Assembly (NCBI RefSeq): GCF_009937955.1
Contig: NZ_AP018439.1
Coordinates: 2,170,001-2,234,000 of the forward strand
Length of the DNA: 64,000 nucleotides
Direction: 5' to 3'
Source of the DNA: Undibacterium sp. KW1
GTDB lineage: Bacteria; Pseudomonadota; Gammaproteobacteria; Burkholderiales; Burkholderiaceae_D
Under the pieces are notes generated by a model. It ran no database searches, was not told where the DNA came from, and saw only the letters and a program-made list of their open reading frames with translations. Positions 9,564-52,987 of the stretch are shown in pieces. Every line of letters starts with the position of its first letter. Within the stretch, counting starts at the first letter, position 1. The translations under genes were made by a program, and so were the position numbers.

Positions 9564-9575
9564 GGACGCTTGCGC

Positions 9576-19432: not shown

Positions 19433-20560
19433 ATGATGAAACTGGTAGGTCTGGTAGGTTGGCGCGGTATGGTGGGTTCTGTCCTGATGCAACGCATGCA
19501 GGAAGAAGGTGATTTCGATCATATTGAACCCGTGTTCTTTTCAACGTCCAATACAGGTGGCGCGGCCCCTGCAATGGCGAAGAATGAAAAGACCTTGCAA
19601 GACGCAAATAATATTGATGCGCTCAAGAAGTGCGAAATTATTATTACCTGCCAGGGTGGTGATTACACCAATGAAATTTACCCTAAATTGCGCGCTAGTG
19701 GCTGGAACGGCCACTGGATAGATGCCGCATCCAGTCTGCGCATGAATGAAAACGCAGTCATCGTGCTGGACCCGGTCAACCTGCCTGTGATCAAGCAAGC
19801 TCTTGTCAATGGTCAAAAAGACTGGATAGGTGGTAATTGCACAGTCAGCTGCATGCTCATGGGTGTTGGTGCTTTGTACAAGGCAGGCCTGGTCGAATGG
19901 ATGAGTACGCAAACTTACCAGGCCGCGTCTGGTGGCGGTGCTCAGCACATGCGTGAATTGTTAACGCAATACGGCACCTTAAATGCCGAAGTGAAGTCTT
20001 TGCTGGATGACCCGAAAAGCGCAATTCTGGAAATCGACCGTAAAATCATTGCCAAACAACGTTCTTTGACTGCCGACGAAACTGCCAATTTTGGCGTACC
20101 ACTGGGTGGTTCGCTGATCCCATGGATAGACAAGGATCTCGGCGACGGCATGTCCAAGGAAGAATGGAAAGGCATGGCCGAGACCAACAAGATACTGGGG
20201 CAGGGTGCAGGTTTTGGTACGGCAGCTGTGCCAGTCGATGGTTTCTGCGTACGTATCGGTGCGATGCGCTGCCACAGCCAGGCTTTGACATTCAAGCTGA
20301 AAAAAGACGTGCCACTGGCAGATATCGAAGCCATGATCGCTGCTGACAATGAATGGGTAAAAGTGGTACCAAATACCCGCGAAGCCAGTATTCGTGACCT
20401 GACACCGGTTGCCGTCACTGGCACCATGACTATTCCGGTTGGCCGTATCCGCAAATTGGCAATGGGCCCGGAATATGTCGGCGCCTTCACTGTGGGTGAC
20501 CAGTTATTGTGGGGTGCAGCAGAGCCACTGCGCCGTATGCTGCGTATCCTGATTGATTAA
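19433..20560 (+). CDS. asd: Aspartate-semialdehyde dehydrogenase
   Basis: A 375-residue NADPH-dependent enzyme converting beta-aspartyl phosphate to the semialdehyde, for Lys, Met, Thr and diaminopimelate synthesis. N-terminal Rossmann motif [13 protein letters not shown], active-site Cys in [10 protein letters not shown] and the [15 protein letters not shown] segment identify the proteobacterial type. ATG 19433 and 19436 are both possible. Its position between leuB and fimV is conserved in betaproteobacteria. Confidence 0.96.
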
Positions 20561-31913: not shown

Positions 31914-33790
31914 ATGACCGAACCAAATATCTCAGAAGCACGCCAGCAGGTGCTCGATCTGGTTGCCAAATTACCCAACCTACCGGGTGTATATCGCTAT
32001 TTCGATAGCAATGACCAGGTGCTGTACGTCGGCAAGGCGCGTGATTTAAAAAAACGTGTTTCCAGCTATTTTCTCAAAAACTCTCCCCCGCGCATTGCGA
32101 TGATGGTAGAGAAAATCGCCAGGCTCGAAACTACGGTCACCCGTAGCGAAGCTGAGGCACTGATCCTTGAAAACAATCTCATCAAGGCTTTAAAGCCGCG
32201 CTATAACATCCTGTTTCGTGATGATAAGTCTTATCCATACCTGAAAATCACCACAGAAAAAACGCCACGCATGATGTATTACCGTGGTGCGATCGATAAG
32301 AAACACCAATACTTCGGGCCGTTTCCGTCCAGTTGGGCTGTCAAGGAGTCGATGCAGATTTTGCAGAAAGTCTTTTTGCTGCGCAGTTGCGAAGACAGTG
32401 TATTCGCCAACCGTACCCGCCCATGTCTGCTGCACCAGATCGGCCGTTGCAGTGCGCCTTGCGTCAAGATTATTACGCCAGAAGACTACCAGCAAGACGT
32501 CAATAATGCCGCTGACTTTTTGCGTGGCCGCCAGTTGGAAGTCATGCAGACTCTGGAAAAAAAGATGCTGGATTTTTCCATGGAACTCAAATTCGAGCAG
32601 GCCGCCGCAGTGCGCAATCAAATGCAGGCCCTTTCTAAAGTCTTGCATCAGCAAAGCATGGAAACCGCAGGCGATGTTGATATCGATATTCTCGCTGTGG
32701 TAGTGGAGGGTGGTCGTGCCTGCGTCAACCTGGCCATGGTCAGGGGCGGGCGGCATCTGGGTGACCGGGCTTATTTCCCCACGCATGTCGATGATGCCCT
32801 CAGCGTCGCAGAAAATGAAATCGAGGTTGAGGTCATCTCGGCCTTTCTGGCACAACATTATGTTGATCAATTCATCCCAGCGACACTCGTCATGAATGTG
32901 GAACTCGATGCACCTGATTTGATACTGGCACTGGCCGAGCAATGCGGTCATCGTATTCACTTGTCATTTCAGCCGCAAGAGCAACGCCGTGCCTGGCTGG
33001 ACATGGCCGTCAAGGGGGCCAGACTGGCGCTGGCGCGTATGCTGTCAGAGCAGGGCTCGCAGCAGGCCCGCACGCGCGCCCTGGCAAGCGTGCTGGAGCT
33101 CGATGTAGAAAACCTTGAAGAATTGCGCGTGGAGTGTTTTGATATCAGCCACACCCAGGGCGAAGCCACCCAGGCATCCTGCGTGGTGTTCCACCACCAT
33201 GCCATGCAAAACAGTGAATACCGCCGCTTCAATATCAAGGATATTACTGGGGCGACGATTACGCTGCCATGCGCCAGGTGCTGTTCCGCCGCTATGAAAA
33301 AGTCGCTAGTGGTGACGCCAGCGGTGAAGAGACTAATGCGCGCCGCATGCCAGACATCGTCCTGATTGACGGTGGCAAAGGTCAGGTGGAAATTGCACGC
33401 CAAGTTTTTGTTGAGCTTGGCCTTGATATCAGCCTCATCGTCGGCGTCGCCAAAGGCGAGGGCCGCAAGGTCGGCCTTGAGACCCTGGTGTTCGTTGATG
33501 GCCGTGCAGAAAAGGAGCTGGGTAAAGAATCTGCTGCCCTCATGCTGATCGCCCAGATCCGCGACGAGGCGCACCGCTTTGCCATCACAGGCATGCGTGC
33601 CAAGCGCGACAAGGCCAGACAGACCTCGCAACTGGAAGAGATAGAGGGCATAGGCCCCAAGCGCCGCCAGCGCCTGCTGGTACGTTTTGGAGGTTTAAAG
33701 GGGGTCAGCGATGCCAGCGTCGCCGATTTGGCCAGTGTCGAAGGTATTTCCCGCCAATTGGCAGAAGAAATTTACAAGCGGCTGCGATAG
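31914..33790 (+). pseudogene. uvrC: Excinuclease ABC subunit C, frame interrupted by a one-base G loss
   Basis: UvrC makes both incisions in nucleotide excision repair. The first frame (to 33365) contains the GIY-YIG nuclease ([21 protein letters not shown]), the UvrB-interacting UVR motif (about 200-235) and the start of the RNase H-like domain, ending in [11 protein letters not shown] then out-of-frame sequence. The second frame carries the correct continuation ([24 protein letters not shown], and the C-terminal HhH motif [14 protein letters not shown]). Adding one G to the GGGG at 33249-33252 yields ITGGDDYAAM, the family sequence, and a 625-residue protein. Same kind of lesion as in rnc 5 kb upstream. 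Confidence 0.92.
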
Positions 33791-34782: not shown

Positions 34783-34858
34783 GCGGGAGTAGCTCAGTTG
34801 GTAGAGCGCAACCTTGCCAAGGTTGAGGTCGAGAGTTCGAGACTCTTCTCCCGCTCCA
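34783..34858 (+). tRNA. tRNA-Gly(GCC), copy 3
   Basis: Identical to copies 1 and 2, 36 bases downstream of copy 2; includes CCA. The exact triplication suggests recent duplication or gene conversion. Confidence 0.97.
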
Positions 34859-34865
34859 GATTCTG

Positions 34866-34890
34866 AAGGGAAGCAAAGCTTCCCTTTTTT
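34866..34890 (+). terminator. Terminator of the tRNA-Gly cluster
   Basis: AAGGGAAGC/GCTTCCCTT stem around AAA, then Ts, directly after the third tRNA. Confidence 0.85.
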
Positions 34891-34967
34891 GTTCAAGTTG
34901 CACCGCATTTCAGCAATCATCAAGCGTGATAAAATCACATTAGACGATCAGCAGAGATAGCACCCCT

Positions 34968-35041
34968 GGCGGGGTAGCAAAGTGGTTATGCAGCGGCCTG
35001 CAAAGCCGTAGACGCCGGTTCGATCCCGACCCCCGCCTCCA
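34968..35041 (+). tRNA. tRNA-Cys(GCA)
   Basis: A 74-base cloverleaf with CCA; acceptor arms GGCGGGG/CCCCGCC, anticodon GCA in CTGCAAA, T-loop TTCGATC. Confidence 0.96.
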
Positions 35042-35046
35042 AATAC

Positions 35047-35074
35047 AAAAAGCGCTTTTAGAGCGCTTTTTTTT
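35047..35074 (+). terminator. Terminator after tRNA-Cys
   Basis: Stem AAAAGCGC(T)/(A)GCGCTTTT with a short loop and a T8 tract. Confidence 0.85.
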
Positions 35075-35118
35075 CCAGAACCCGACTTAGCGTTTCGCTA
35101 AGCAGGTTGTAGTAGTGG

Positions 35119-35211
35119 GCCCGAGTGGTGAAACTGGTAGACACATCGGACTTAAAATCCGCCGCTTCGTTAATAGCGGGCGTGCCGGTTCGATTCCGGC
35201 CTCGGGCACCA
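35119..35211 (+). tRNA. tRNA-Leu(UAA), integration target
   Basis: A 93-base class II tRNA with encoded CCA; acceptor arms GCCCGAG/CTCGGGC, anticodon TAA in CTTAAAA, long variable arm (CCGCTTCGTTAATAGCGG region). Its last ~19 bases plus the following 9 recur exactly at 49005-49032, marking it as the attachment site of an integrative element; the gene itself is intact. Confidence 0.96.
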
Positions 35212-35220
35212 CGTACTTAC
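35193..35220. other. attL: 28-bp core in the 3' end of tRNA-Leu
   Basis: Exact match to 49005-49032, covering the T-arm/acceptor 3' end, CCA and 9 downstream bases (CGTACTTAC). After the exact core, about 110 bases on both sides remain recognisably similar, including a shared terminator hairpin. Confidence 0.88.
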
Positions 35221-35235
35221 ATCACATATCATCAT

Positions 35236-35279
35236 AAAACCCGCAAAGCCAATGAAATCAAGGCTCTGCGGGGTTTTTT
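35236..35279 (+). terminator. Terminator of tRNA-Leu (attL copy)
   Basis: CCCGCAAAGCC pairs imperfectly with GGCTCTGCGGGG, then T6. A near copy lies at the other attachment site (49048-49089). Confidence 0.7.
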
Positions 35280-35334
35280 GTTGGTTTCGCAAATGCGCAA
35301 ATTGCCGCTTTAAACCACTATTTTCTGTTTCCAA

Positions 35335-35408: not shown

Positions 35409-35990
35409 TTGGCATCGTTTACGAAAATGGCGAATGGCTGGCGGGCGCAGATCAATATCAAGGGCCATCGTGAGTCATTGGTGCGCCCGACAAAGGCGCA
35501 GGCCGTGGCCTGGGCTACTGAGCGTGAATCTGCAATACGCAATCACGTCGATACCGGCATTCTCAAAGGAAAAACTTTTGAAGATGCCTGTCGCCGTTAC
35601 GAGCTGGAGGTATCAAAGCACAAACGGGGGTATCGATGGGAGGCGCTGCGCCTTAATGCCCTGGTCGAATTTGTGATGGATGGTAAGCGGCTGGGCGACA
35701 TCGAGCTGGTAGATATGTCATCTGATCTGATTGGCCGGTGGCGTGACCTACGCATGAAAGGCACGGAAGAAACAAAAGGTGTTTCAGGCTCGACAATTAA
35801 CAGAATTTTAAATCTGTGGTCCCACGTCCTTAGCACTGCTGCAACAGAATGGAAGTGGATATCGCACAGTCCGACCAAGGACGTGCGCAGGCCGAAAGAA
35901 TCCCCGCATCGGGATCGTAGGCCAACACAGGACGAAATCGACAGGATCAAGCTATATTGCGGGTTTAATGATGAGCCTAGCGTAAACCAA
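35409..35990 (+). pseudogene. Tyrosine integrase, N-terminal fragment
   Basis: About 194 codons from a TTG start (MASFTKMANGWRAQINIKGH; an ATG lies at 35427). It contains the arm-binding N-terminus and the SAM-like core-binding domain and ends at the inter-domain linker (RRPTQDEIDRIKLYCGFNDE). From 35991 the frame runs into an unrelated protein. The catalytic half lies on the other strand at 36547-36990, cut at the matching position. Location directly after attL is the normal place for the element's integrase. No catalytic residues are present here, so this piece alone is inactive. Confidence 0.85.
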
Positions 35991-36281
35991 TACTGCCTGG
36001 ATGAAATCGGTGACGAAGACGACCAATTTAACACCGTGCTTGCAATGGCGAGGGCCGAAGGCATCGACCCCGACCAGGTACGTGCCGAACTGGAGACACC
36101 CGTCGAGCCTGAACCAGCACCAGAGCCAGTGCAAAAACCTGCGAAGCGTGGTCGCAAGCCAAAAACTGAGAAGCCAGCCGACGCAGCCCTGCCGGAAAAA
36201 ACCGAGACAGAAAAAGAGGCAGAAGCAGTATTACAAAAAATTGCCCCCTGGCCATACCCAACATCTAAAGGTGCAGCATGA
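35988..36281 (+). pseudogene. ParB-like protein, C-terminal fragment (fused in frame to the integrase fragment)
   Basis: About 97 codons in frame with the integrase N-terminus: an acidic segment with LAMARAEGIDPDQVRAELE followed by a Pro/Glu/Lys-rich linker (contains KPAKRGRKPKTEK) and a short tail. It reads as the continuation of the minus-strand fragment at 36988-37228; joining the two at the inversion breakpoint gives LGESLIQYCLDEIGDED. The ParB-like call is from memory of island ParB C-termini and is tentative. It overlaps the next gene by 4 bases (ATGA). Confidence 0.55.
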
Positions 36282-36550
36282 GCGACACAGACATCATCCA
36301 GAAAATCGCTGCCGCTGTTGTGGCACAGATAAAGCCAGCAATACCGCTATCGATTGACCTGTGGGATATTTCAACAATCGCACAGTTTCTGAAGCGCAAT
36401 GAATCGGTGGTAAGAGAAAGGATCGCTTGTAAACCTGACTTTCCACCAGCAATACGCCTGCCGACTGAAACAGGCAAACGTGGCCACCCGCTATACAAGG
36501 CCAAGGATGTCATCCAGTGGGCAGAGAAATACACGGAGCGCCGCGCTTAA
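36278..36550 (+). CDS. Small helix-turn-helix protein (AlpA/excisionase-like)
   Basis: A 90-residue protein; a central MerR/AlpA-like helix-turn-helix region with DISTIAQFLKRNESVVRERIACKPDFPPAIR, the 'fixed residue, then proline' pattern typical of AlpA/excisionase proteins. It starts within the upstream frame (ATGA) and its stop overlaps the stop of the integrase C-terminal fragment on the opposite strand. Before the inversion it would have been convergent with the integrase. Likely regulator of excision or gene expression; not proven. Confidence 0.65.
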   Translation: MSDTDIIQKIAAAVVAQIKPAIPLSIDLWDISTIAQFLKRNESVVRERIACKPDFPPAIRLPTETGKRGHPLYKAKDVIQWAEKYTERRA

Positions 36551-36990
36551 TCCAGTCTCGATGCCATCTCTGCTGCAGACTCGTTGTAATAGACCTGCAG
36601 CATTCTCAAGTCCCTATGTCCCACCATACGCGCCAGGTCAAGAACATTAAGCTTCTTGGCCAGGCGCGTAATCGCTTCATGGCGCGAATCATGAAACGTC
36701 AAATCCTCAATTAAACAGGCTTTAGTGGCCTTCCTGAACAAAGTGCTTAGACTATCTGCCGACAGCATAAATAAATTGTCCTCGGCCCTTTCCGGCTTTG
36801 GTAGGTAGCTTAAAAGCTTCAGCGCTTGCTTTGACAAAGGGACGTCGCGCTTCATTCCATTTTTTGTTTTTGGCAAGTGGGCCACGTTGCCGGTGATATG
36901 TGCTTCAAGTAGGCCGCAGATTTCCCCTTGGCGCATGGCCGTCTCGATTGCAAACAGATACGCCACCGCGACTGCCTGCGTCTTGCTTTG
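36547..36990 (-). pseudogene. Tyrosine integrase, C-terminal catalytic fragment
   Basis: About 146 codons with the full catalytic set of a tyrosine recombinase: Arg in AMRQGEICGL, beta-hairpin Lys in KTKNGMKRDVPL, HxxR in FHDSRHEA, His in GHRDLRML and the nucleophile Tyr in QVYYN. It begins SKTQAVAVAYLFAIETAM, exactly what should follow the N-terminal fragment at 35409-35990. In its present orientation it is fused in frame to a ParB-like fragment and lacks the DNA-binding half. Confidence 0.88.
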
Positions 36991-37228
36991 GATAAGTGAT
37001 TCACCAAGAACCAGATCGACGAGCAGGATTTGCACTTCTTCAATGGATGCCTGGTCAATGTATTGACACACGGTTTCGTCAGCGCCACCTTCAAACGGAT
37101 ATAGATCACCGAGTAGATCATCCGGCAGAGAAAAATCATTGCGGTAATCAGTGACCATTGCTTTGACAAATTCGCGCAATGACTGCAGGCTGAATCCGCC
37201 AAACCTGCGCTGGCGGAGCCGCTTGTAG
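36988..37228 (-). pseudogene. ParB-like protein, internal fragment
   Basis: Minus-strand reading SLREFVKAMVTDYRNDF ... LYPFEGGADETVCQYID ... VQILLVDLVLGESLIQ, now running into the integrase catalytic fragment. Its N-terminal part is lost at about 37229, where plus-strand terminase sequence begins; upstream codons to 37407 are merely antisense to that gene. Its C-terminal part is at 35988-36281 beyond the inversion. Confidence 0.5.
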
Positions 37229-38065
37229 AGTGCTATCCCGCCTGAAAATGGCGCTGAACCAGGCAAGTACAGTAGTGACCGGACACCATACGCTGAAGAA
37301 GTAATGCAGTGCCTGTCGCCTGAGCATCCGTGCCGTCGTGTCGTAGCTAAGGTGGCGTCCCAACTGATGAAAACGCAGGTTGCTTTGAACTGGATATGCG
37401 GAAGCATTCACCAGGCCCCCGGCAATATGCTGGTGTTGCTGCCATCTCTTAGCCTGGCCAAGCGTGTCAGTGGTCGTATCGATAAGACGATCAATGCCGT
37501 GCCGGTGGTCAACGAATGTGTGGCTGCACCAAGAAGCCGTGACAGCCGAAACACCATCGATACCAAAGAATTCAAGGGCGGCACTGATACAGCAAAGGAC
37601 TGGATATATAACCGCATCAAGTTTGATAGTGGACCAGGCGCCATTCATTTCAGCGAAGATTTATCCGCTGATTACTATGAGCAAATGACTGCCGAACGCA
37701 AGCTGACCAGGTATGTCAAAGGTTTCAAGCGGACAGAGTGGGTAAAAGCCAAAGCTGCCCGGAATGAAGCATGGGATTTGATGGTGTACAACCTGGCTGC
37801 AGCGCATTTTTTAGGCTTGCATCGCTGGCGCGAGGCAGATTGGGAGCGTAAGAAACTCCGGGTTGATCCGGATCAGCAAGACATTTTCGCACCTCCGGTT
37901 CCCAAAATTGCCACGGTCGAAGACCAGGAAGAACAGCAGCCGGTTAAACCCCAAGCAAGGCCGAGAGAAAACCCCAAAGTTTCGGCACCACGACCAACAC
38001 CTACACAGCAAAGTCCCGGCCAAGAGTCGGGATTTGTCGTTTACCACTCTACGGATTATGAATAA
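37229..38065 (+). pseudogene. Phage terminase large subunit (GpA type), truncated and internally deleted
   Basis: Open from 37229. It reads GAEPGKYSSDRTPYAEEVMQCLSP, the usual GpA N-terminal region, then MLVLLPSLSLAKRVSGRI and SRDSRNTIDTKEFKGGT, where it jumps (about 37583) to the C-terminal nuclease-side sequence DTAKDWIYNRI ... GPGAIHFSEDL ... KRTEWVKAKAARNEAWDLMVYNLAAAHFLG. The family is normally over 600 residues; here roughly 280 codons remain, so the Walker B/ATPase core and most of the nuclease are missing although the frame stays open. The last ~65 residues are a Pro/Gln-rich tail. Not functional for packaging. Confidence 0.8.
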
Positions 38066-38292
38066 TGGCTGATCTCGCAAAACTACAAGCTTACTTGTCC
38101 GGCGCAGAGGATGCGCTCAACAAACTGATGACCGGGACGCAAGTTGTCGAGTTTGACCGCTCAGGTACGAAGATTCGATACACACCGGCGCAAGTACCAG
38201 CGTTGCAAACGTATATCGCCCAGCTCAAGAGCCAGATTGCTGCGTTAGGTGGCGGTGGCAATTCACGTCGCGTTATCTATCAATACTTCTGA
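38065..38292 (+). CDS. gpW-like head-tail joining protein
   Basis: A 75-residue protein overlapping the terminase stop by one base (TAATG). The pattern LQAYLSGAEDALNKLMTGTQVVEFDRSGTKIRYTPAQVPALQTYIAQL is that of lambda gpW, which sits at the head-tail connector. It is followed, as in lambdoid phages, by the portal gene (fragment). Intact but orphaned in a decayed prophage. Confidence 0.75.
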   Translation: MADLAKLQAYLSGAEDALNKLMTGTQVVEFDRSGTKIRYTPAQVPALQTYIAQLKSQIAALGGGGNSRRVIYQYF

Positions 38293-38622: not shown

Positions 38623-39003
38623 CCAGAGGAAAACATCTCTGCAGCGCACCTCCGCCTGGCTTCTGCTTTCATTGAAAACATGGACTGGCACAAGCTTATG
38701 CTGCGCTATGACAGACCACACACATTCTTTTACCTGGACCCGCCATATTGGGAAACGGAAGGCTACGGTGTGGATTTTGGGATCGAGCAATATGAGCTGA
38801 TGGCCGACACGCTCAAGAAGTTAAAAGGCAAGGCCATCATCAGCTTGAACGACCACCCGGATATCCGGCGAATCTTTGCAGGCTTCGAGATCGATACAGT
38901 GCCGATAAAGTACAGCGTCGGGGGTGGTGGCAAGACCGTGGACAGAATGGAGGTGATAATCTATTCATGGGACCGGGCAAGTGACCCGGTTGGGTTGTTC
39001 TAG
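38623..39003 (+). pseudogene. Phage-type DNA adenine methylase, C-terminal fragment
   Basis: Continuous reading NISAAHLRLASAFIENMDWH then FYLDPPYWETEGYGVDF: the DPPY catalytic motif and C-terminal region of Dam-type N6-adenine methyltransferases. The N-terminal half with the AdoMet-binding FxGxG motif is missing, so it should be inactive; an ATG at 38680 could still start 107 codons. Confidence 0.75.
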
Positions 39004-40912: not shown

Positions 40913-42574
40913 ATGCCGACACTGACTTGGGTAGGAAAAGACAAGGTGGTTAATCACCATCATGAAGTACCATTTCGCGTGTTGAATAAGCAGTATAGTT
41001 TTAGTCAGCCTTCAAGCCATAAGGACCATCAGAAAGATCAGTTGCAGCTTTACAGCTCACCAAAATCTTCAAGCAATTCGCAAGCTAATTCTGTAAATAA
41101 CCGGATAATCCATGGCGACAATCTCGAAGCATTGAAGAGTTTGCTTCCCGAATTTGAAGGGAAAGTAGATTGTATTTACATTGATCCTCCGTACAACACC
41201 GGCAATGAGGCTTGGGTCTATAACGATGCTGTAAATGATCCGAAGATAAAGAAATGGTTGGGGCAAGTTGTAGGCAAGGAAGGAGAGGATCTATCAAGGC
41301 ATGATAAATGGCTGTGTATGATGTATCCGCGACTTAAGCTACTTCAGCGGTTGTTATCAAGTAATGGTTTTTTCTTTGTGAGTATTGATGCATTCGAATT
41401 CGGTCATTTAAAGGTATTGCTAGACGAGATCTTTGGTGTGCAGAATTTTCGAAATTGCATAGCCGTCCGCCGTGGTGTAAAAAATGTTCAGTCTCAATTC
41501 GATGAGTTGCAGGCACTTTCATTGGGGCATGAATATATTTTTCTATATTCAAAAAATACATCTTCAAAATTACCTAAGCTAACAAAAGCACACGATGAAG
41601 TTAAGGCGGGCAAGTGGGATACGTTCTGGAGAGGTACCGATCGGCCTACCATGCGCTACGAAATTTTTGGTGTAAATCCCCCTTCTGGTCAATGGCGATG
41701 GGAGAACGGAAGAACAAGCAGAGCAATAAATAACTACTTGGATTTCAAAGCCAACCACGCTCAACATATTTCAATAGATGATTTTTTCCTAGATCGCCTT
41801 CAAGCGACAAATGAGAAGTTGGATTTTGTTCGATTGAGCGAAAATGGAGTTGTTCAGTATTATGTGCCTCCGCAGGGAAGTAAGCTCGCTAATGACCAAT
41901 GGATGGATATTACGCTTTCAGGAGCATTTACTGATTTTGATACGGAAAAGAATGTTGAAGTCCTTGATCGTATTGTTGGATGGATCACTGGCGAGAATCC
42001 AAATGCAATCATTCTCGACTCATTCGCTGGGTCAGGTACCACTGCGCATGCGGTTCTGAATCTAAATGCAAAAGATGGCGGCAATCGTCGCTTTATCTTG
42101 GTTGAAACTATGGACTATGCGGAAACCATGACAGCACAACGTGTTCGACGCGTCATGACTGGCTACGGGGAAGGCAGTAAATCAGTACCTGGACTCGGTG
42201 GTAGTTTTGATTTTTACACCATTGGCGAACCAATTTTTCTAGATGATGACAATTTCAATGAGTCGATCGGCATTAGTGTAATTCGGGATTATGTTGCCTT
42301 CACTGAAGGGATCTTAGAATCTGACCGAGTAGGGCAAGACAATCCTTATTCACCACATCTGCTGGGCTTAAATAGTGAAATAGCTTGGTTGTTTAACTAT
42401 GAGTTGGATAAGGTTACAGTGCTCGATCTACATTATCTGGCAGGGATACGTTTCGGGTTAAAAAAGCCGCAGTTTTCCATCATTTATGCCGATCGTTGTC
42501 TATTGGACGAAGCATTCATGACCAAACATGGAATTAGTTTTAAAAAAATTCCACGCGACATTACACGATTTTAA
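40913..42574 (+). CDS. Type III restriction-modification DNA methyltransferase (Mod)
   Basis: A 553-residue beta-class N6-adenine methyltransferase: catalytic DPPY at 91-94 (YIDPPYNTGNEAW) precedes the AdoMet-binding FAGSGTT motif at 371-375, and the ~275-residue insert between them is the target recognition domain. In type III systems Mod recognises an asymmetric site and forms the complex with Res. The C-terminal ~130 residues are the usual Mod tail. The Res gene starts 9 bases downstream, so the two form an operon. AT-rich composition indicates acquired DNA. No repeat tract for phase variation is seen in the gene. Confidence 0.92.
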   Translation: MPTLTWVGKDKVVNHHHEVPFRVLNKQYSFSQPSSHKDHQKDQLQLYSSPKSSSNSQANSVNNRIIHGDNLEALKSLLPEFEGKVDCIYIDPPYNTGNEAWVYNDAVNDPKIKKWLGQVVGKEGEDLSRHDKWLCMMYPRLKLLQRLLSSNGFFFVSIDAFEFGHLKVLLDEIFGVQNFRNCIAVRRGVKNVQSQFDELQALSLGHEYIFLYSKNTSSKLPKLTKAHDEVKAGKWDTFWRGTDRPTMRYEIFGVNPPSGQWRWENGRTSRAINNYLDFKANHAQHISIDDFFLDRLQATNEKLDFVRLSENGVVQYYVPPQGSKLANDQWMDITLSGAFTDFDTEKNVEVLDRIVGWITGENPNAIILDSFAGSGTTAHAVLNLNAKDGGNRRFILVETMDYAETMTAQRVRRVMTGYGEGSKSVPGLGGSFDFYTIGEPIFLDDDNFNESIGISVIRDYVAFTEGILESDRVGQDNPYSPHLLGLNSEIAWLFNYELDKVTVLDLHYLAGIRFGLKKPQFSIIYADRCLLDEAFMTKHGISFKKIPRDITRF

Positions 42575-42583
42575 AAAGAGATA

Positions 42584-45274
42584 ATGATGGATCTTAAACC
42601 TTATCAACAACGTGTGATTGATGATTTATGCGCGTTCCTGGCAAAATTGGAATCGTCGCGTCGAATAGATCGTGCGTTTCATGAACTATGGTCGGAACGT
42701 GGCGTAACTGCTATGGAGCGATACAAAAACAATGTGGCTGGTGTACCGCATGTTTGCGCAAAGGTACCTACCGCCGGAGGTAAAACCTACATTGCGGTCA
42801 ATGCGCTAAAGCCAATATTTGAAGCATTTCGCCGCCATAACCCTAAACGCCCAACTTTCGTTGTGTGGCTGGTACCGTCATTAACTATCCTTGACCAAAC
42901 AGTTGGAGCTCTTTCAGATAAAGATCATCCATACCGCAAGCGCTTAAACGCACTATTTCGAAACAAAGTAGAAATTTACGAAAAAAAGGATTTACTGCAG
43001 GGAGCGGGGTTTTCTTTAGACACCGTCCGTGAGCAGTTGTCTATTGTAGTCATGAGTTTCGATTCACTTCGGGCAAAAAACAAAGAAGATAGAAAAATAT
43101 TTCAGGATAACGGCTATCTTGCATCATTTCTAAATGACGATGATGAGGCAAGTATGGATTTTCTTTTGCCGCAACACGACGCGTCTTCTTTGATTAATGT
43201 TATTCGTAGAATGAAGCCAGTAGTTGTCGTTGATGAGAGTCATAACGCCGAGACAAAGCTGTCGGTGGATATGCTTAACGACCTGAATCCACACTTTATA
43301 TTTGACCTCACAGCAACACCAAAAAATAATAGTAATATCATTAGCTTTGTCGATGCTATGCAGCTTAAAAAGTACAATATGGTGAAGTTGCCAGTAATTG
43401 TAGCGAACCGTAAAGACAAAAATGAAGTTATTGAAGCTGCATTGATACTTCGGCGGCAGTTGGAGTCGATTGCCATTGAAGAGGAGACGAAGGGCGGAAA
43501 AAAAATACGTCCGATAGTGCTATTTCAAGCGCAGCCGAAAACCGCAGACGACAACACCACGTTTGAAAAGATTAAGCAGACGTTAATTGATCTAAAAATA
43601 CCGGAAGAGCAAATTAAGATAAAGACGGCGAATGTCAATGAATTAAAAGCAATTGACTTGATGGCCGACGACTGTCAAGTTCGGTTCATTATCACCATTA
43701 ATGCCCTAAAAGAGGGGTGGGACTGTCCCAACGCTTATATTCTTGCCGCATTGGGTGATAAATCATCTGCAGTTGATGTCGAGCAAATCCTTGGGCGTAT
43801 CCTTCGAATGCCTCATGTGCGTAAACACGGTAACGATTTACTCAATATGAGTTATGTGTTCACAGCTAGCAATCGTTTTGCTGAGACACTTGATAATGTC
43901 GTTAAGGCTCTGAATCGATCTGGCTTCTCCGATAGAGATTATCGCTCTTTAAATATGGACGATGCAGCATCGAGAAACGATCTTCAATTGCCAGGACAAG
44001 GTCAAAAGCCAGACGATCTGTTTAGCCGAGAACATGCAGCAGCTCATACTAGTAATAAGGCACATGATGCTGAAAACGATACAGAAATCGACATTGCAAA
44101 AGTTGCTGCAACATTAAAGCAGGCTGAATTACAAGGTGATCTGTGCACTGATCAGGCTATTTCGACAAATGTAAATACTTTTGTGGATTCGATCACAGCG
44201 CAGGCCAGCGCCGAAAATCATGCGTATGAGGAAGCCGCAAAAGGTACTGAAACTGACAGCTTGCCTTTCGAACTGGAAACAAAAATGAATAAGCACCGTT
44301 TGAAGGACTTGTTCCGCGAAGATGCATTGAGTCTAAAACTTCCGCAGTTCTTTATTAAAGTGGAAACCGGCGGTTTTTTTAACGAGGACGAGGAATTTCA
44401 ACTGGTTGAACGAGATCATTTGTTGAAAGAGTTTAAGTTAAGCAATTTGGATGCAACTATAAATTTTGCTGGTGTAGATAGTGAAATGTATAAGGTTGAT
44501 CTAGAGCAAATTGGTGAGGAAGAATATGCTCCAAAGCCATTTAAGATTGATAAAAAAAATCGTCAGCGATTTAACGGAATCATCCTCTCTCAATCACGTG
44601 ATATGCAAATATTGAGTTTGACGAATCGACTGTTTGACCTAATTGGGAATCTTTATCCGATTGACGATAATGATGCCAAGCGATATCTGGCCCGTATAAT
44701 CGAGGAAATGGATGAGGAACAAATTAGAGATTGCCTCGACCGAGATGTGGCGTATGTTAAAAAAATTCGACAAAAAATTGATTCGCTTGCAAATGTTCAT
44801 GCAAAAAAACAATTCCATGATTTGTTAGATGTAGAGAAAATTTCTACGCGACCATATTACTCATTGCCAGATAGCATAGCGCCAAGCGCAAATGCGCCAG
44901 CAATTCCCAGAAGCCTGTATGTTACGGAAGCATCGATTGGTAATTTCGAGAGGCATATAATTAATGAAATAGCTGATCTAGAGAACATTCTCTGGTGGCA
45001 TCGTAATCTATCGAAAGGGAAAGGATTTCGTATCAACGGCTTCATCAATCACTACGCCGACTTTATTTTGAGGACGAAGTCAGGAAGAATCATCATTCTT
45101 GAGACGAAAGGTGACGATCGTGATAATTCCGACTCGGAATTTAAATTGGAGCTTGGAAAGCTTTGGGAAAGTAAGATTGGGGGCGCGTATAAATATATGA
45201 TGGTTTTTGAGACTAATCCTATCCCTGGTGCAGAAAATTTATCAGACGCACTTAAGAAACTTTCGCAGCTTTGA
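42584..45274 (+). CDS. Type III restriction endonuclease subunit (Res), helicase-nuclease
   Basis: An 896-residue SF2 helicase-nuclease. Walker A PTAGGKTY (Lys67), DExH-type box DESH (217-220), motif VI VEQILGRILRMP (Gln401) and LKEGWDCPNAY define the motor; the C-terminal endonuclease has D826 ... E840-T-K842 (ILETKGDD), a PD-(D/E)xK site. ATP-dependent translocation and cleavage require Mod. Full-length and apparently intact, so the system is expected to be active as anti-phage defence. Confidence 0.92.
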   Translation: MMDLKPYQQRVIDDLCAFLAKLESSRRIDRAFHELWSERGVTAMERYKNNVAGVPHVCAKVPTAGGKTYIAVNALKPIFEAFRRHNPKRPTFVVWLVPSLTILDQTVGALSDKDHPYRKRLNALFRNKVEIYEKKDLLQGAGFSLDTVREQLSIVVMSFDSLRAKNKEDRKIFQDNGYLASFLNDDDEASMDFLLPQHDASSLINVIRRMKPVVVVDESHNAETKLSVDMLNDLNPHFIFDLTATPKNNSNIISFVDAMQLKKYNMVKLPVIVANRKDKNEVIEAALILRRQLESIAIEEETKGGKKIRPIVLFQAQPKTADDNTTFEKIKQTLIDLKIPEEQIKIKTANVNELKAIDLMADDCQVRFIITINALKEGWDCPNAYILAALGDKSSAVDVEQILGRILRMPHVRKHGNDLLNMSYVFTASNRFAETLDNVVKALNRSGFSDRDYRSLNMDDAASRNDLQLPGQGQKPDDLFSREHAAAHTSNKAHDAENDTEIDIAKVAATLKQAELQGDLCTDQAISTNVNTFVDSITAQASAENHAYEEAAKGTETDSLPFELETKMNKHRLKDLFREDALSLKLPQFFIKVETGGFFNEDEEFQLVERDHLLKEFKLSNLDATINFAGVDSEMYKVDLEQIGEEEYAPKPFKIDKKNRQRFNGIILSQSRDMQILSLTNRLFDLIGNLYPIDDNDAKRYLARIIEEMDEEQIRDCLDRDVAYVKKIRQKIDSLANVHAKKQFHDLLDVEKISTRPYYSLPDSIAPSANAPAIPRSLYVTEASIGNFERHIINEIADLENILWWHRNLSKGKGFRINGFINHYADFILRTKSGRIIILETKGDDRDNSDSEFKLELGKLWESKIGGAYKYMMVFETNPIPGAENLSDALKKLSQL

Positions 45275-45322: not shown

Positions 45323-46594
45323 CTACCTGCAAACCGGAAAGTCATCCCAAGTCGTCGTATAGGACGGCGACTTGGCCTCCATCCTCATTTTCCACGAATG
45401 CCTACTACCATCCTGGCTTAGCTTCAAAGTACCTTTACCATATCGCCTGTTGACCTGATCCAGCACGTCCATTAGTTCAGGTTTTTCCTTCGCCTCAGAA
45501 AACATGTCGCCCTGGTACGTCGTTGTCGGGGAAATTTCACTTAGGATCACCCCAGCCTTTTTGTACTCGTATCCTTGCTTGAAAATACTGTTCAGTGCAG
45601 CCATTGCATAGCGTTGCAGCGTGATGGTGTTGCAAGTTGGCTGAACCAATGGAACAGCAATACATGGGTTGTATTGCGGCAGCTCGGTTCTGAAACGGTT
45701 GGTCTGTATGAATACCTGCAACATGCCAGCTATGGAGTCTTGGTCCCGCAGCTTGCGGGCAGCGTTGCTGACGAAGTGGGCGAGGGCGTCCTGTAGATCT
45801 TCGATTGCTGTGACGTTCTTGCCAAAGCTGCGGCTGTTGATGATTTGTTTCTTCGCTGGTGCGGCCTCGTCCAGCTCAATGCATGTCTCCCCCCGTAGTT
45901 CTCTGATCGTCTTTTCCATCACGACTCCAAACTTATTGCGCAGGCTGGCCACGTCACTATCCCGAAGCTGCAACACGGTATCGATGCCGTAGGCGCTCAA
46001 GGATGCAGTCAGCTTGCGACCTATGCCCCAAACTTCTTCTACCGGGAGATTTTTAAGTACGCTGTCCACCTGGTTCGATGAAAGCAGATTGAAATTAAAA
46101 ACACCGGCAGACCGTGGATGCCGCTTCGCCATGAAGTTCGCCAGCTTTGCCAGGGTTTTGGATTGCCCCACACCCACGCAAACCGGGATGCCGGTGTCTG
46201 TCATGACCTTCTGACGCATCGCTCTTGTGCGCGCCACGATGTCATCAAAGCCAGTCAGGTCCAGAAACGACTCATCAATACTATAGACCTCATGGACTGG
46301 CGAGTATTCTGCCAATATGGACATCACCCGGTTACTCAAATCAGCGTACAGGGCATAGTTGCTGCTGAATACCGCGATGTTATGCTTCTTGACCAGGTCA
46401 GCCACTTCAAAGATCGGGCCACCCATCTTGATACCGAGGGCCTTCGCCTCCTGGCTGCGACTTACGGCACACCCGTCATTATTGCTGAGCACGACCACAG
46501 GCCGGTTCAACAGATCCGGGCGAAACAGGCGCTCACAGGAAACATAGAAATTATTGCAGTCAATGAGGGCAATGCTGCGCGGCCCGGCATCCAT
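45323..46594 (-). CDS. umuC: DNA polymerase V catalytic subunit (UmuC)
   Basis: A 423-residue Y-family translesion polymerase. [17 protein letters not shown] and [10 protein letters not shown] carry the catalytic acidic residues, followed by the helix-hairpin-helix region ([12 protein letters not shown]) and the little-finger domain; the C-terminal DUF4113-like region ends [17 protein letters not shown]. Start 10 bases after umuD; operon under a LexA box. A decayed second copy of its 3' half is at 51266-51951. Confidence 0.95.
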
Positions 46595-47099: not shown

Positions 47100-47300
47100 A
47101 TGAGGTTGATACTTAAGCAAGGTATCGATGAGCGTCACCCAGCGATTGTGGACATGCTCAATGAGTTCAAATCGCGCTACACTTTGTTAGACAACATGAG
47201 TCGTAAAACTGCTGAGGCGGTGATAGTCATCACGATCGCTTTGCTAGCGTATTCTGTTGCATTTTTATTTGAATTCGCGATAGATGAGGCAATCGATTGA
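47100..47300 (+). CDS. Small single-pass membrane protein upstream of the nuclease-helicase
   Basis: A 66-residue protein: soluble, charged N-terminus (about 1-40, LKQGIDERHPAIVDMLNEF), one TM helix (about 42-62, AVIVITIALLAYSVAFLF) and a short acidic tail. AGGGGA precedes the ATG. Its stop overlaps the TTG start of the next gene (TTGA), so the two are translationally coupled, suggesting a joint function. It is transcribed divergently from umuDC, with the LexA box in the shared interval, so SOS influence on this gene is possible. Confidence 0.65.
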   Translation: MRLILKQGIDERHPAIVDMLNEFKSRYTLLDNMSRKTAEAVIVITIALLAYSVAFLFEFAIDEAID

Positions 47301-48769
47301 AAAAAACAAACATACTTTCTTTAGTTCAAGCTAACAGATCGTTGAAGAAAGAGACTTTTGACAGTTACTTGAAACATTACGGAATAGCAATGAAGGCTGC
47401 CGAATTAGAAGACCTCGAAAGTTTTATTGGGGTTTTAACTGTGGAGGGGATCAGCCTAAATATTTTCGATTGTTTTTATGTTGGCTTCACAATACCTCAG
47501 ATCGGAAAAGAATTTGATTTGTTGCGCTTTGGTGCGGAATATGTCATCAATATTGAGTTAAAAAAAATAAGTACTGAAGAGAAAATACAGAAACAGCTAG
47601 TCAGAAATAGATACTATTTGGGCAATCTTTGTAAGAAGGTATATAACTTTTCATTTATTGCAGAAAGCAAAAGTCTATTTATTCTTACTGATAATGATGA
47701 CCTAGAAATGGTGGGTTTCGATTATCTGATTGGACTGCTAAAAGACCAGAAGGTTGATGATATTCAAAATGTTGAAGACCTATTTAATCCTTCCGATTTT
47801 TTAGTTTCCCCTTTTAACTCTACTCAAAAATTCTTAAACAAACAGTATTTCCTGACGCAGCAGCAAGAAGATATAAAAACTAAAATTATCAATTCAATAA
47901 GTATTGGCAAGACTGCCAATTTTGTATCTGTTGTAGGGGGGGCTGGTACTGGAAAGACTTTATTGATTTATGATCTGGTTAAAGAACTAAGGGAGCAAGG
48001 CAAAGATGTATTAATTTTGCACTGTGGATATCTAAATGCAGGGCAAGAAATGCTGAGGCAGCTTGGATGGCAGATAAGTCAAATAAAATACTTATCCTCA
48101 CATGATCTTTCTAATTTTGATGTGGTAGTCATTGATGAGGCTCAGCGTATATATCCTGTGCAATTGGATCAAATAGTTAATACTTTAACTATGTCTAATG
48201 GTAATTGTATCTTCTCTTATGACAAGCGCCAAACGCTTGCTAAATCGGAGGAGGCGCACGACATTGACGGTAAAATAAGTAATATTAATTCGCTCACTAA
48301 GTATAAGCTCACAGAAAAGATCCGAACAAATAAAGAGATCGCTCTTTTTATTAAAATGCTTTTCAATAACCAACAAGCAATCAATGGAACTGTTCATGGA
48401 AGTGTTGAAGTCAACTATTTTCAAAATGTTGATGACGCGAAGCGCTATTTGGAATCAATAGATACAAGTAGATGGGAGGTGCTTAGGTTTACTCCGTCTC
48501 AATTTAATAGAGAACATCATGATCAGTACTCTGAAATTTCCGCGAAGACATCGCATAAAGTAATCGGGCAGGAGTTTGATGGTGTCGTTGTAACCATTGA
48601 CAGGTATTTTACCTATAACCAAGATGGCGAATTAACCTATCTTGCTAAAGCTTATTACTATCCGGTCAAAATGCTCTTTCAGAACATGACTCGTGCAAGA
48701 AAAAGAATAAATTTGGTAATAATAAATAATGAAGAATTATTAAATAGATGTATAGCTATTTTGCAATAA
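47297..48769 (+). CDS. Nuclease-helicase fusion (NERD-like nuclease plus DUF2075/SF1 ATPase)
   Basis: A 490-residue protein from a TTG start. The N-terminal ~170 residues contain EFDLLRF (D74) ... NIELKK (E87-x-K89), the D...ExK layout of NERD/PD-(D/E)xK nucleases. The C-terminal part is a DUF2075-type SF1 helicase/ATPase: Walker A GGAGTGKT (Lys220), Walker B VVVIDEAQRI (Asp280-Glu281), FSYDKRQTL, GQEFDGVVV and NMTRARKRINLV (motif VI). AT-rich. Such fusions occur in anti-phage systems, and the neighbours (type III R-M, DUF4062) point the same way. I do not recognise it as a named system. Both halves look intact. Confidence 0.82.
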   Translation: MKKTNILSLVQANRSLKKETFDSYLKHYGIAMKAAELEDLESFIGVLTVEGISLNIFDCFYVGFTIPQIGKEFDLLRFGAEYVINIELKKISTEEKIQKQLVRNRYYLGNLCKKVYNFSFIAESKSLFILTDNDDLEMVGFDYLIGLLKDQKVDDIQNVEDLFNPSDFLVSPFNSTQKFLNKQYFLTQQQEDIKTKIINSISIGKTANFVSVVGGAGTGKTLLIYDLVKELREQGKDVLILHCGYLNAGQEMLRQLGWQISQIKYLSSHDLSNFDVVVIDEAQRIYPVQLDQIVNTLTMSNGNCIFSYDKRQTLAKSEEAHDIDGKISNINSLTKYKLTEKIRTNKEIALFIKMLFNNQQAINGTVHGSVEVNYFQNVDDAKRYLESIDTSRWEVLRFTPSQFNREHHDQYSEISAKTSHKVIGQEFDGVVVTIDRYFTYNQDGELTYLAKAYYYPVKMLFQNMTRARKRINLVIINNEELLNRCIAILQ

Positions 48770-49004: not shown

Positions 49005-49032
49005 ATTCCGGCCTCGGGCACCACGTACTTAC
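49005..49032. other. attR of element I / attL of element II
   Basis: Exact 28-bp copy of the tRNA-Leu 3' end and 9 following bases (35193-35220). Only the 3' fragment of the tRNA is present here, as expected for the distal junction. Confidence 0.88.
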
Positions 49033-49047
49033 TTCGCATATCATTGT

Positions 49048-49089
49048 AAAACCCCGCAAAGCCAATGAAATCAAGGCTCTGCGGGGTTT
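49048..49089 (+). terminator. Terminator-like hairpin, second copy
   Basis: CCCCGCAAAGCC / GGCTCTGCGGGG with a short T tract; copy of 35236-35279. Confidence 0.6.
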
Positions 49090-49209
49090 GTTGTTGGTTT
49101 TACGAATACGCAATTTGCCGCCTTAAACCACAATTTTCTGTTTCTCATTACGCCATTTTTACACCATAATTACGCCACTCAATCTTGGCAGATGTGAAAA
49201 TGGCAAATA

Positions 49210-50244
49210 TTAGTAAGCGTCCAATCTCTTGATTGCAACTATTTTTGTTAAATATTGGTCACCATATTTAGTCAGCGTCCAATACGGTGATTGGAGAGAG
49301 TCGAAATATATTTTCTCACTTTTACAAATTAAGTTGAGTGCTCGGAGTTGTATTTTGATGGAAGAGAAACTTGTTTCATCAATCTTAAAACAGTCTAACT
49401 TGCTAAACTCCATCTTCGGACCTCGATCACAGTATTCAAGAGTTTTAATAAAATCTGTCAATTTATCTTGCATAGTATCCTCACTCGTATCGACAATTAA
49501 GTGAGGTGCGATTACTGAAAATATCTTGTTCCATGAAAAACTGCAGCTACTTCGAATGTCTCTAGTCGTTATATAGTCGTCATCCCACTCTCTGTAGGTG
49601 TAACCAATTTTGAATTTGTCTTCGCCTTGTGCTAAATCTGCTGTTGGCTCCATAATCTCTTCTTTTGTTTTTGCCAATTCCTCCTTTAAAGCATCAATAT
49701 GTCTTCGTAAATTTAATATTTCTATATTTGCTTCCATTGTTGGAACATCGGAGCCTCGAACCCAACCTGCGCCAGGAGCTTTGGTCATTTGTATAGATAG
49801 GCCCCGACTAACAATCGATCCGAGCTCTAACGCATTTTCCCAGTACTTGCAGTGCTTGCCTTGTACTTTGTGGCGAAAGTCCCTAAGTTTATGAGTGGAC
49901 TCACTAATTTTCTCAGTTTTCCCTGCGGGAATTTTTTCAGGGTCCTTATGTAAAAAGGCTAAAATTGGTATTTGCCTTGATACTGCATAATCGTATTCCA
50001 TTTCAGTATAGCTTTTGCCTTCTGGTCCGATCGATCCGTATCGACCGCCGAGAATCAACACGTAGTAATCGCAATCGTTTATAACGTTCCTAATTAAATC
50101 CCATTGATCTTCATCTGCAGCCGGAAATAGCTCCATTCCGGCAGGCATTACATCTAGCTCTAGTAATGCCTTCATAACTTCCTTCCTTTCGTCTTCAAGG
50201 TCGGTAAAAGTACTACTTATAAATACTTGATATTTTTTTTTCAC
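49210..50244 (-). CDS. DUF4062 domain protein
   Basis: A 344-residue protein. The N-terminal DUF4062 domain (about 1-95) has VFISSTFTDLEDER, AGMELFP, DYYVLILGGRYGS and YTEMEYDYA, all typical; the fold is TIR/flavodoxin-like and often found as the sensor or effector part of defence and signalling proteins. The middle is helical (about 170-205 coiled coil, LRRHIDALKEELAKTKEEIM) and the C-terminal ~110 residues look like a winged-helix-type module. The gene ends exactly where the integrase remnant begins, so it defines the junction of element II. Biological role is unknown; defence is inferred from context. Confidence 0.75.
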   Translation of the reverse strand: MKKKYQVFISSTFTDLEDERKEVMKALLELDVMPAGMELFPAADEDQWDLIRNVINDCDYYVLILGGRYGSIGPEGKSYTEMEYDYAVSRQIPILAFLHKDPEKIPAGKTEKISESTHKLRDFRHKVQGKHCKYWENALELGSIVSRGLSIQMTKAPGAGWVRGSDVPTMEANIEILNLRRHIDALKEELAKTKEEIMEPTADLAQGEDKFKIGYTYREWDDDYITTRDIRSSCSFSWNKIFSVIAPHLIVDTSEDTMQDKLTDFIKTLEYCDRGPKMEFSKLDCFKIDETSFSSIKIQLRALNLICKSEKIYFDSLQSPYWTLTKYGDQYLTKIVAIKRLDAY

Positions 50245-50335
50245 GATTACTCCCTTGGCGGTGTCATTTGTATTGGATGAAGATCTCGGTAATTGATTAG
50301 AGGGACATCTGCGAAAATTTTTTTTTAGTTTCTCG

Positions 50336-51184
50336 TTACATCCGTGGAGGCGGCGATACTTGTTTGCATTTTAAAAACAAGTTTTTAATCCATTTATCAT
50401 GTTCTGCCTTTATTTCATGAATTATTTTTTCTCGGACATTGGTCGAAATTTTATAAGTGTCTGGTGGAGGTCTGAGCTCAGGTACAGAAAGTATTAAGCT
50501 AATTTCGTTAATCTTTGTTCTTGGAATTATTGTTGTTTGTGCTGTTTCATAATTCCATAAAAACACATAATCGGTTGATGCACCTAGCATTGCATGACAT
50601 TTATATGTTTGATCGATCGTTCTAATATCGTATCTGCTGGCTATACCTTGCTTGATATCGTGAGAATGGCTTACCATTGCCGAAGGCAGGCTTACCAATG
50701 AAAGAACAATTAAAGTAGGCGGCGCAAAAATGATGAAAAATCGAATCAGCTGCCCGTAAATGAATTCAAATATTTTTTCCAAAATTGATGGCCGTTTATT
50801 TGGGCGTTTTTTTTCTATTTTATCTTTTTGAATTTCTACCACTGACGGCGCCGTCACTTTTTCCTTGTTTTTTTGAATTGCCCCAAAACATATTATGAAC
50901 AATGCAATGAAAAATATGCAACTTCCCGCTATTTTCCAGGCTTGGTTAGAGAATGCAGGCTTATATATATCCAAAAAACTTGAAAAATATGTGATTTCTA
51001 TTCCAAATTCTTGATAAAACGAAATGCTTAAAAATAGGCATAAACCAGTAAATACAGTGGCGAATGATGCCGCTAGAGAAGTGTAATGGTCTTTTAGAAA
51101 GGCAAGAAGATACGATAGGTAACCAAGTTTCTTTTCTGAATCCTTATCAGGAGTTCCATTTGGCGGTTTATCTGAAGCTATCAT
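50336..51184 (-). CDS. Membrane protein of unknown function
   Basis: A 282-residue protein: N-terminal 35 residues cytoplasmic, TM segments at about 36-57, 84-105 and 150-175 (FFIIFAPPTLIVLSLVSLPS), then a ~100-residue soluble domain. No family recognised. Same strand and 91 bases upstream of the DUF4062 gene, so they may form a two-gene unit. Confidence 0.6.
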   Translation of the reverse strand: MIASDKPPNGTPDKDSEKKLGYLSYLLAFLKDHYTSLAASFATVFTGLCLFLSISFYQEFGIEITYFSSFLDIYKPAFSNQAWKIAGSCIFFIALFIICFGAIQKNKEKVTAPSVVEIQKDKIEKKRPNKRPSILEKIFEFIYGQLIRFFIIFAPPTLIVLSLVSLPSAMVSHSHDIKQGIASRYDIRTIDQTYKCHAMLGASTDYVFLWNYETAQTTIIPRTKINEISLILSVPELRPPPDTYKISTNVREKIIHEIKAEHDKWIKNLFLKCKQVSPPPRM

Positions 51185-51265
51185 TTTTTATGAAAATATT
51201 AGGGAGTTGTTATTTTGATTCTAATAAATGAATCATACTTGATTATCTTCATTCTGACTGTTGCA

Positions 51266-51951
51266 TTACCTGCAAGTTGGAAACTCATCCCATGCCGTCG
51301 TATAGCATGGTGACTTGACTTCCATCCTCATCTTCCACGAATGCCTGCTGCCATCCTGGCTTAGCTTCAACGTACCTTTACCGTATCGCCTGTTGACCTG
51401 ATCCAGCACGTCCATTAACTCAGGCTTTTCCTTGGTGTCAGAAAACATGTCGCCTTGGTATGTCGATGCTGGGGAAATTTCACTCAGGATCACTCCTGCC
51501 TTTTTGTATTCATATTCAGATTTAAAAATGCTGTTTAGTACAGCCATTGCATAGCGCTGCAGCGTGATGGTGTTGCACGTTGGTTGGATCAGTGGCACGG
51601 CGATACAAGGGTTGTATTGCGGTAGCTCGGTTCTGAAGCGGTTGGTCTGGATAAAAACTTGTAGCATCCCAGCGATAGAATTTTGGTCCCGCAGCTTGCG
51701 GGCGGCATTGCTGACAAAGTGGGCGAGGGCATCCTGCAGGTCTTCAATTGCGGTAACGTTCTTGTCAAAGCTGCGGCTGTTGATGATTTGTTTCTTCGCT
51801 GGTGCGGCCTCATCCAGCTCAATGCATGCCTCCTCCGTAGTTCCCGGATCGTCTTTCCATCACGACCCCAAACTTGTTGCGCAGGCTGGCCACGTTACTA
51901 TCCCGAAGCTGCGGCACTGTGTCGATGTTATAGGCGCTCAAGGATATATTT
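51266..51951 (-). pseudogene. umuC remnant (3' part, second copy)
   Basis: Nearly collinear with 45323-46004 of the intact umuC, including the C-terminal [20 protein letters not shown] and SWKMRMEVKSPCY stretches. A one-base deletion near 51832 breaks the frame, and homology stops at about 51951, 67 bases before an insertion sequence. No umuD copy is left. Confidence 0.88.
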
Positions 51952-52018
51952 GGCTATGCTGCATAGCCCTCTATGAAGTTCCGTAACACCTTGCTTGTAA
52001 GCTTTCGTCTGCTGACTA

Positions 52019-52869
52019 GGGCGTGTTGACATATCTATTTTGCATGAGGGCTGTTAACTTTTCCGAAAATGTGTTTACATCCTTGAATTTGGGCGAATCA
52101 AGGATGTCGAGAATGTTGTTGCGTGACGATCAATGGGCAAGAATAGAGAGGCTGTTGCCTGGACGAACAGGAGGCGGAGGCAGGGCTGGTGGAAATGACA
52201 GGCTGTTTATTGAAGCAGTGTTGTGGATAGCCCGCACAGGTAGTCCGTGGCGAGATTTGCCGGTTGAGTTTGGCTACTGGAACACGGTCTATACGCGCTT
52301 TGCGCGGTGGTCTGAGCGAGATAGTTGGCAAAGTATTTTTTCTGTGTTGCGAGAAGAAGCTGATTTTGAAGAGGTGTACCTTGATAGCACAGTGGTGAGA
52401 GCACACCAACACGCAGCGGGCGCTGCCAAAAAAAAGGAGAGCAAGCTCTTGGCCGTTCTCGCGGGGATTGACTACTAAAATTCATGTATGTGTGGAAGGC
52501 TTGGGGCAAGCAGCCCGTTTCCTGCTTACTGGGGGTCATTGTCATGATGTGACGCAAGCAGAGGCATTACTCAAAGACCTACAGCCAGGAGCAGTACTGG
52601 CAGACAAGGCTTACGATGCCAATGCTTTGATTGCGCGCATTCAAGAGAGAAATGCGAAGGTTGTGATCCCGTCAAAATCGAACCGGAAAGAGCCAAGAGA
52701 AATTGATGCTTTTCAGTATCGCAACCGCAATGTAATCGAACGGTTTTTTGCGAGAATCAAACAATTCAGACGAATTGCAACACGCTATGACAAGTTGGCT
52801 TCTCGCTTCGCCTCATTCTTCGCTATTGTGGCTTCTTTTGAATGGCTAAAATGATATGTCAACACGCCC
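52019..52869. mobile_element. IS5-family (IS427-type) insertion sequence, 851 bp
   Basis: Perfect 17-bp terminal inverted repeats GGGCGTGTTGACATATC (52019-52035 and 52853-52869 complement), flanked by TA on both sides within CTAG, the usual target of this group. Size fits. Carries one two-part DDE transposase gene. Confidence 0.93.
52104..52854 (+). pseudogene. IS5-family transposase (two-part, frame further broken)
   Basis: The first part (ATG 52104, MSRMLLRDDQWARIERLLPG) contains the first catalytic Asp in EVYLDSTVVRAHQH and runs to an A8 tract at 52428-52435, the typical -1 slippage site of IS427-type elements. After a -1 shift the frame reads GEQALGRSRG and then stops; the rest (TTKIHVCVEGLG, second Asp in LADKAYDA, Glu in NVIERFFARIKQF) lies in yet another frame from 52468. 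Restoring one G in GGGG 52463-52466 rejoins it (GRSRGGLTTKIH). So the shift at A8 is normal, the G loss is not. Confidence 0.88.
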
Positions 52870-52987
52870 TAGCGAAATGAATGGGCGTAAAAAAATGCAT
52901 TTGTTTATTCGAATGCATTACAGTAAGTGTTTTTAACATAACGTATGAGTCAACCTTTATATGTCTGAGTGAGTCAAAGTTGGTGAT

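Follow-up and report, generated by a model that had tools for sequence, protein, structure and literature searches.

In this study, the window, that is, the whole stretch of DNA analysed, comprised 64,000 nucleotides of Undibacterium sp. KW1 (G000:C1:2170001-2234000 of a 6.69 Mb genome in two contigs). Beside a tRNA-Leu gene in this window, a prophage integrase is split between residues 190 and 191, and its two halves lie on opposite strands. The question raised by this locus is whether the split is a switch that controls the excision of the prophage or a scar of its decay. A preliminary description attributed the split to one inversion, and offered both a reversible switch making excision phase-variable and a one-time event that locked the element. 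We consider it very probable that a single illegitimate inversion took place, and that it is one of several scars left by the decay of a tRNA-Leu prophage whose defence genes survive (Table 1).

The arrangement of the integrase was established by comparison with an unsplit relative. A database search with either of the two hybrid proteins returned the same unsplit protein, P0002 (338 aa), which was 99% identical to both. In the hybrid plus-strand frame (35409-36281), an integrase beginning (phrog_1, residues 10-185) is joined to a different end, and the hybrid minus-strand frame (37407-36547) ends as PF00589. Together, the two halves differ from P0002 at 3 of 338 residues, with nothing left over between them, and one of the two differences in the N-terminal half is the start residue, read as L from TTG in the window. 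The N-terminal part and PF00589 of a tyrosine recombinase are therefore found in one chain in P0002 and not in the window. The PF00589 match begins at residue 190 of P0002 (profile position 19 of 172), and at profile position 26 in the minus-strand frame; by these profile matches, some 18-25 positions of the domain at most would sit on the other side of the cut, so that the minus-strand half, earlier called a complete catalytic part, may lack them. The cut is thus at the N-terminal edge of the catalytic domain, close to the inter-domain linker where it had been placed before. Among the matches listed, the closest named relatives of the C-terminal half were Undibacterium species, and such species were also among the closest named relatives of the ParB-like gene.

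The second split gene gave the same result. P0178, a full-length ParB-like protein of 619 aa from Undibacterium sp. Di26W, accepts both ParB-like pieces of the window without a gap. P0179 (Undibacterium sp. Ji42W) was set aside as a reference, as it was less similar to the pieces (44/85 and 57/136 identical). Because the integrase fits P0002 and the ParB-like pieces fit P0178, both gapless, and because a ParB-like frame of the same genome (L005) agrees, with its first piece ending at 7080 and its second starting at 7084, one residue in, the flipped segment was defined as 35979-36993 (1,015 bp). The integrase and the ParB-like frame are cut by the same two breakpoints, 35978/35979 and 36993/36994, and the partner in DNA identity changes at about these places (integrase of L007, ParB-like gene of L005). 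The splits in the integrase and in the ParB-like frame, with the breakpoints that they have in common, are far beyond chance and are confirmed as present in the assembly. One inversion splitting both genes, as first proposed, therefore stands, and its ends have moved from 35990/35991 and 36987/36988.

With the new ends, the only bases common to both are the palindrome TA. CCAA, earlier named as the sequence shared by the breakpoints, lies inside the flipped segment, 9-12 bases (left) and 2-5 bases (right) from the breakpoints set by P0002 and P0178, and was excluded as the shared microhomology; its presence is coincidental. Flipping the segment back would give a whole integrase frame, of 338 residues as in P0002 instead of the 340 to which the halves first proposed add up. 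Both hybrid frames are open, as had been observed; since the two junctions have the same phase relation, this is a single coincidence (about 1 in 3) and not two.

The gene order proposed to precede the inversion is supported by relatives. Integrase, a convergent HTH-like gene and a ParB-like gene follow each other in L007, L087 and L124, which may be one element seen three times, as their match values are identical; L007 has an extra gene between HTH and ParB. The HTH-like gene of the window had no match in NCBIfam or Pfam. It was thought that the flip would put this gene convergent with the integrase; in fact, the HTH-like gene and the C-terminal half of the integrase are both inside the flipped segment, so that they are convergent in either orientation.

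If the split order were the old and normal architecture, with functional hybrid proteins, it should recur among relatives. Some of the 134 loci collected overlap with the window or with one another, or are repeats. In 121 loci, the integrase halves followed each other on a single strand, at most 120 bases apart; in 3 (L001, L086, L104), all of which are the window itself, they were on opposite strands. A further 3 had the C-terminal half only, with open frames of 218 aa (L077) and 198 aa (L079) upstream of the match and a frame closed 24 aa upstream in L085, and 7 had neither half. Viral contigs contributed 11 loci (best 76%), with contiguous halves in all. Among 272 proteins, both integrase halves were in one chain in 148 (94 without length change at the junction), and both ParB pieces in 89 (49 without length change, a few about 100 residues longer); 30 others matched one ParB piece, 1 matched one integrase half and 2 matched nothing. 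The only hybrids were P0001 and P0054, both from this genome, and the cluster of each hybrid holds 2 member sequences on 1 contig. These counts apply to relatives that share exact words with the query, as detected by the protein searches (best 120 of 2537 and best 120 of 1300), and to a genome collection with one genome per species. The literature matches listed, as far as their available text goes, described no integrase divided by an inversion of this kind.

In the six relatives of the genus whose matches were below 1e-50 (G002, G021, G022, G036, G037, G042), the integrase lies in open frames of 332-370 aa. The second integrase of the host (at 1841764, in L006) is also unsplit, with 338-339 aa and halves 54% and 66% identical to those of the window. 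Among the loci and proteins examined, neither the split order nor a hybrid, which had been named as findings against an inversion, was seen outside this genome. Although both hybrid frames are open, we regard an old, functional hybrid architecture as extremely unlikely. L006 (G000:C1:1836000-1850000) also has a convergent HTH gene beside its integrase; by eye, its reverse-transcriptase-like ORF (9155-10324) and repeated target-like ORFs recall a diversity-generating retroelement.

The ends of the segment bear on whether a host or phage recombinase could flip it and thereby control excision, by switching the integrase between an active and an inactive state. Invertons are described, in the available part of the source, as flanked by inverted repeats of 10-40 nt (PMC11892184). 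Here only TA is shared, and none of the 20 inverted pairs of at least 8 bp listed in 35900-37080 has its arms at the two breakpoints. Two imperfect inverted pairs sit 37-86 bases from the inversion ends: 36037-36056/36937-36956 (20 nt, 80%), inside the segment and 58 and 37 bases from its ends, and 35931-35940/37071-37080 (10 nt, 90%), outside it. Compared with 20,000 random pairs of places, the symmetry of the ends was somewhat above random: 5/12 at ±6 bp (16% of random pairs as good), 10/20 at ±10 bp (1.6%), 12/26 at ±13 bp (1.9%), 14/40 at ±20 bp (11%) and 20/60 at ±30 bp (9.6%), with the TA used to find the ends counted in every interval. A Pfam scan of the 15 larger ORFs of the region detected no other site-specific recombinase.

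A switch would agree with the clean breakpoints, the weak symmetry at ±10 and ±13 bp, the two imperfect pairs and the near-identical unsplit integrase in another genome. Moreover, both hybrid ORFs are uninterrupted and in frame, and the two integrase halves are almost unaltered, which would fit an event of recent date or even a reversible one. However, no other flipped copy was seen in the loci or proteins examined, and re-orientation would not restore ParB or the phage. We therefore judge a reversible switch to be quite improbable, and the proposal of phase-variable excision is not supported by ends that have no site-like repeat. Even less probable is a reversible lock on the defence-carrying prophage by a nearly repeat-free inversion, with one state in which a complete integrase would let the island leave, and another in which the island would be fixed and the HTH gene read from the side of the integrase. 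A one-time event, the other alternative offered at first, is favoured over a switch because there is no site-like repeat at the ends, no other flipped copy among the loci and proteins examined, heavy deletion of the element and no other site-specific recombinase among the ORFs scanned; that this event was illegitimate is favoured by ends that lack the repeats of invertons and by the decayed surroundings.

These surroundings contain further scars. P0178 residues 1-438, about 71% of 619, have no counterpart in the window. The ParB_N and HTH_ParB domains of P0178 are at residues 39-211, and the pieces in the window match only residues 439-619; accordingly, neither frame had a ParB match in Pfam. 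The flip had been expected to restore the ParB-like frame, but what it restores is a C-terminal fragment, the rest having been lost at the second scar. Because of these other deletions, the flip-back would yield a whole integrase frame, but neither a ParB gene nor a phage. The terminase has lost about 354 codons (about 1,062 bases) in frame relative to the copy in G017 (L142 1500-439). Phage genes are thus mostly lost or truncated, with fragments of integrase, ParB, terminase and methylase, and gpW. A further prophage remnant of the same genome (L005, G000:C1:3238000-3252000) contains a ParB-like frame that is truncated, and its methylase is similar by eye to the remnant at 38680-39003.

We also considered an assembly artefact, in which a chimeric or misjoined consensus would have created the inversion. 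In the same window, uvrC is read in two overlapping frames (31914-33365 and 33269-33790), apparently because one base present in L007 has been deleted. This is either a real mutation or a consensus error, and the frameshift may signal consensus errors. On the other side, no repeat at the breakpoints could mislead an assembler, the genome is in only two contigs, and other rearrangement scars adjoin the inversion. An artefact is therefore improbable, though somewhat less so than a switch.

The limits of the island were obtained from relatives that do not have it. In G021, window positions 34854-35241 and 53723 onward correspond to L155 bases 1-388 and 561 onward, with flanking matches 93-98% identical, and both flanks were also present in G042 (34997-35219 and from 53723 on). 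These island-free flanks indicate that some 18.5 kb are extra in the window, which are probably two tandem elements meeting at 49005. The first carries the type III restriction-modification system, the UmuC-like gene and the AbiO/Nhi-like gene. The interval 49005-53722, a possible second tandem remnant, has a 91% copy of the stretch that precedes the integrase, after which no integrase ORF was seen in this interval. The copy is followed by a DUF4062 gene, a fragment of a second umuC (86% identical to 45324-45623) and an IS4/5-type transposase. In a related genome (G025, L154), the tRNA-Leu site is retained at bases 19369-19851 together with 33 bases from the start of this integrase gene, and the remainder of the integrase was not found within 19.9 kb.

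Table 1. Features of the prophage and its inverted segment, in window positions.
Feature	Position	Strand	Evidence
tRNA-Leu (taa), integration target	35119..35211	+	ARAGORN; relative G021 has the flank without the island
Left attachment-site repeat (tRNA 3' end and downstream)	35193..35331	+	Direct repeats D2 and D5, 91-92% identical to 49005-49144
Integrase N-terminal half, residues 1-190	35409..35978	+	2 differences/190 vs P0002
Left inversion breakpoint (TA)	35978..35979	.	Zero-gap alignments to relatives
Inverted segment, 1,015 bp	35979..36993	.	Alignments to relatives
ParB-like C-terminal tail, fused to integrase N-terminal half (hybrid ORF 35409-36281)	35979..36281	+	79/100 identical to P0178 520-619
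Small HTH-like gene inside the flipped segment (phrog_4996; "HTH" is the label of the preliminary description)	36278..36550	+	82% identical neighbour of the integrase in L007, L087, L124
Integrase C-terminal half, most of PF00589	36547..36993	-	1 difference/148 vs P0002; PF00589 positions 26-170
Right inversion breakpoint (TA)	36993..36994	.	Zero-gap alignments to relatives
Remaining ParB-like piece upstream of the break, 5' two thirds missing	36994..37236	-	71/81 identical to P0178 439-519
Deletion scar, ParB-like fragment head to head with terminase fragment (approximate place)	37236..37240	.	Two similarities meet
Large terminase (GpA) remnant, 5' end missing and internal deletion	37240..38065	+	PF05876 and PF20454 pieces; vs G017 (L142)
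gpW head-tail gene	38065..38292	+	PF02831
D12 adenine methylase remnant	38680..39003	+	Pfam match below cutoff; by eye similar to a longer L005 ORF
Type III restriction-modification, mod and res	40913..45274	+	Pfam, PADLOC
UmuC-like (IMS family) polymerase	45323..46594	-	Pfam
AbiO/Nhi-like defence helicase	47297..48769	+	PADLOC E 5.5e-185 (AbiO), 7.5e-182 (Nhi)
Right attachment-site repeat, perhaps also left repeat of the second tandem remnant	49005..49144	+	Direct repeats; G021/G042 flanks

The following events very probably produced the present locus, presumably in this order. A temperate phage would have integrated at the tRNA-Leu gene of an Undibacterium-like host, where it underwent decay. 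The 1,015 bp were inverted, probably once and without return, by an illegitimate recombination between ends sharing only TA, possibly through microhomology or end joining of a double break. The inversion cut the integrase, which is presumably dead, and the ParB-like gene, which may have been truncated at that time or later. Separate deletions took away most of ParB together with the interval between ParB and terminase, the central part of the terminase, and the majority of the structural genes. Judged from the broken integrase and terminase sequences, the element is predicted to be unable to excise or to form particles. It is likely that self-excision was lost and that the defence cargo became fixed in the chromosome.

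If this single-inversion explanation holds, the locus is a well-resolved case of a prophage immobilised by inversion instead of a stop codon or a deletion, with breakpoints at base level and a near-identical unsplit integrase for comparison. If the switch were true, it would mean phase-variable excision of a defence island. The locus also calls for caution, as split integrases can be misread as switches unless an unsplit relative and the neighbouring scars are checked.

Three known systems can be compared with this locus. The integrases of Pseudomonas phage Turba and Acinetobacter phage TRS1 (PF00589; phrog_1) match P0002 over its full length with 47.3% and 45.7% identity, whereas the copy in the window is divided between the two strands. 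Invertons and gene-altering programmed inversions are similar in that a short segment flips and coding frames change at both ends; in contrast to them, the segment described here has no end repeats of 10-40 nt, and no recombinase was identified for it. The cryptic, or "grounded", prophage with an inactivated integrase is the closest likeness, since the element is anchored at a tRNA gene, has attachment repeats there, and combines phage remnants and deletions with surviving cargo. The integrase of a prophage is usually inactivated by a stop, a frameshift or a deletion. The integrase in this study, however, was broken by an inversion common to the neighbouring gene, and thus the element is a cryptic prophage of a known kind, in which inversion seems to be an uncommon way of losing the integrase.
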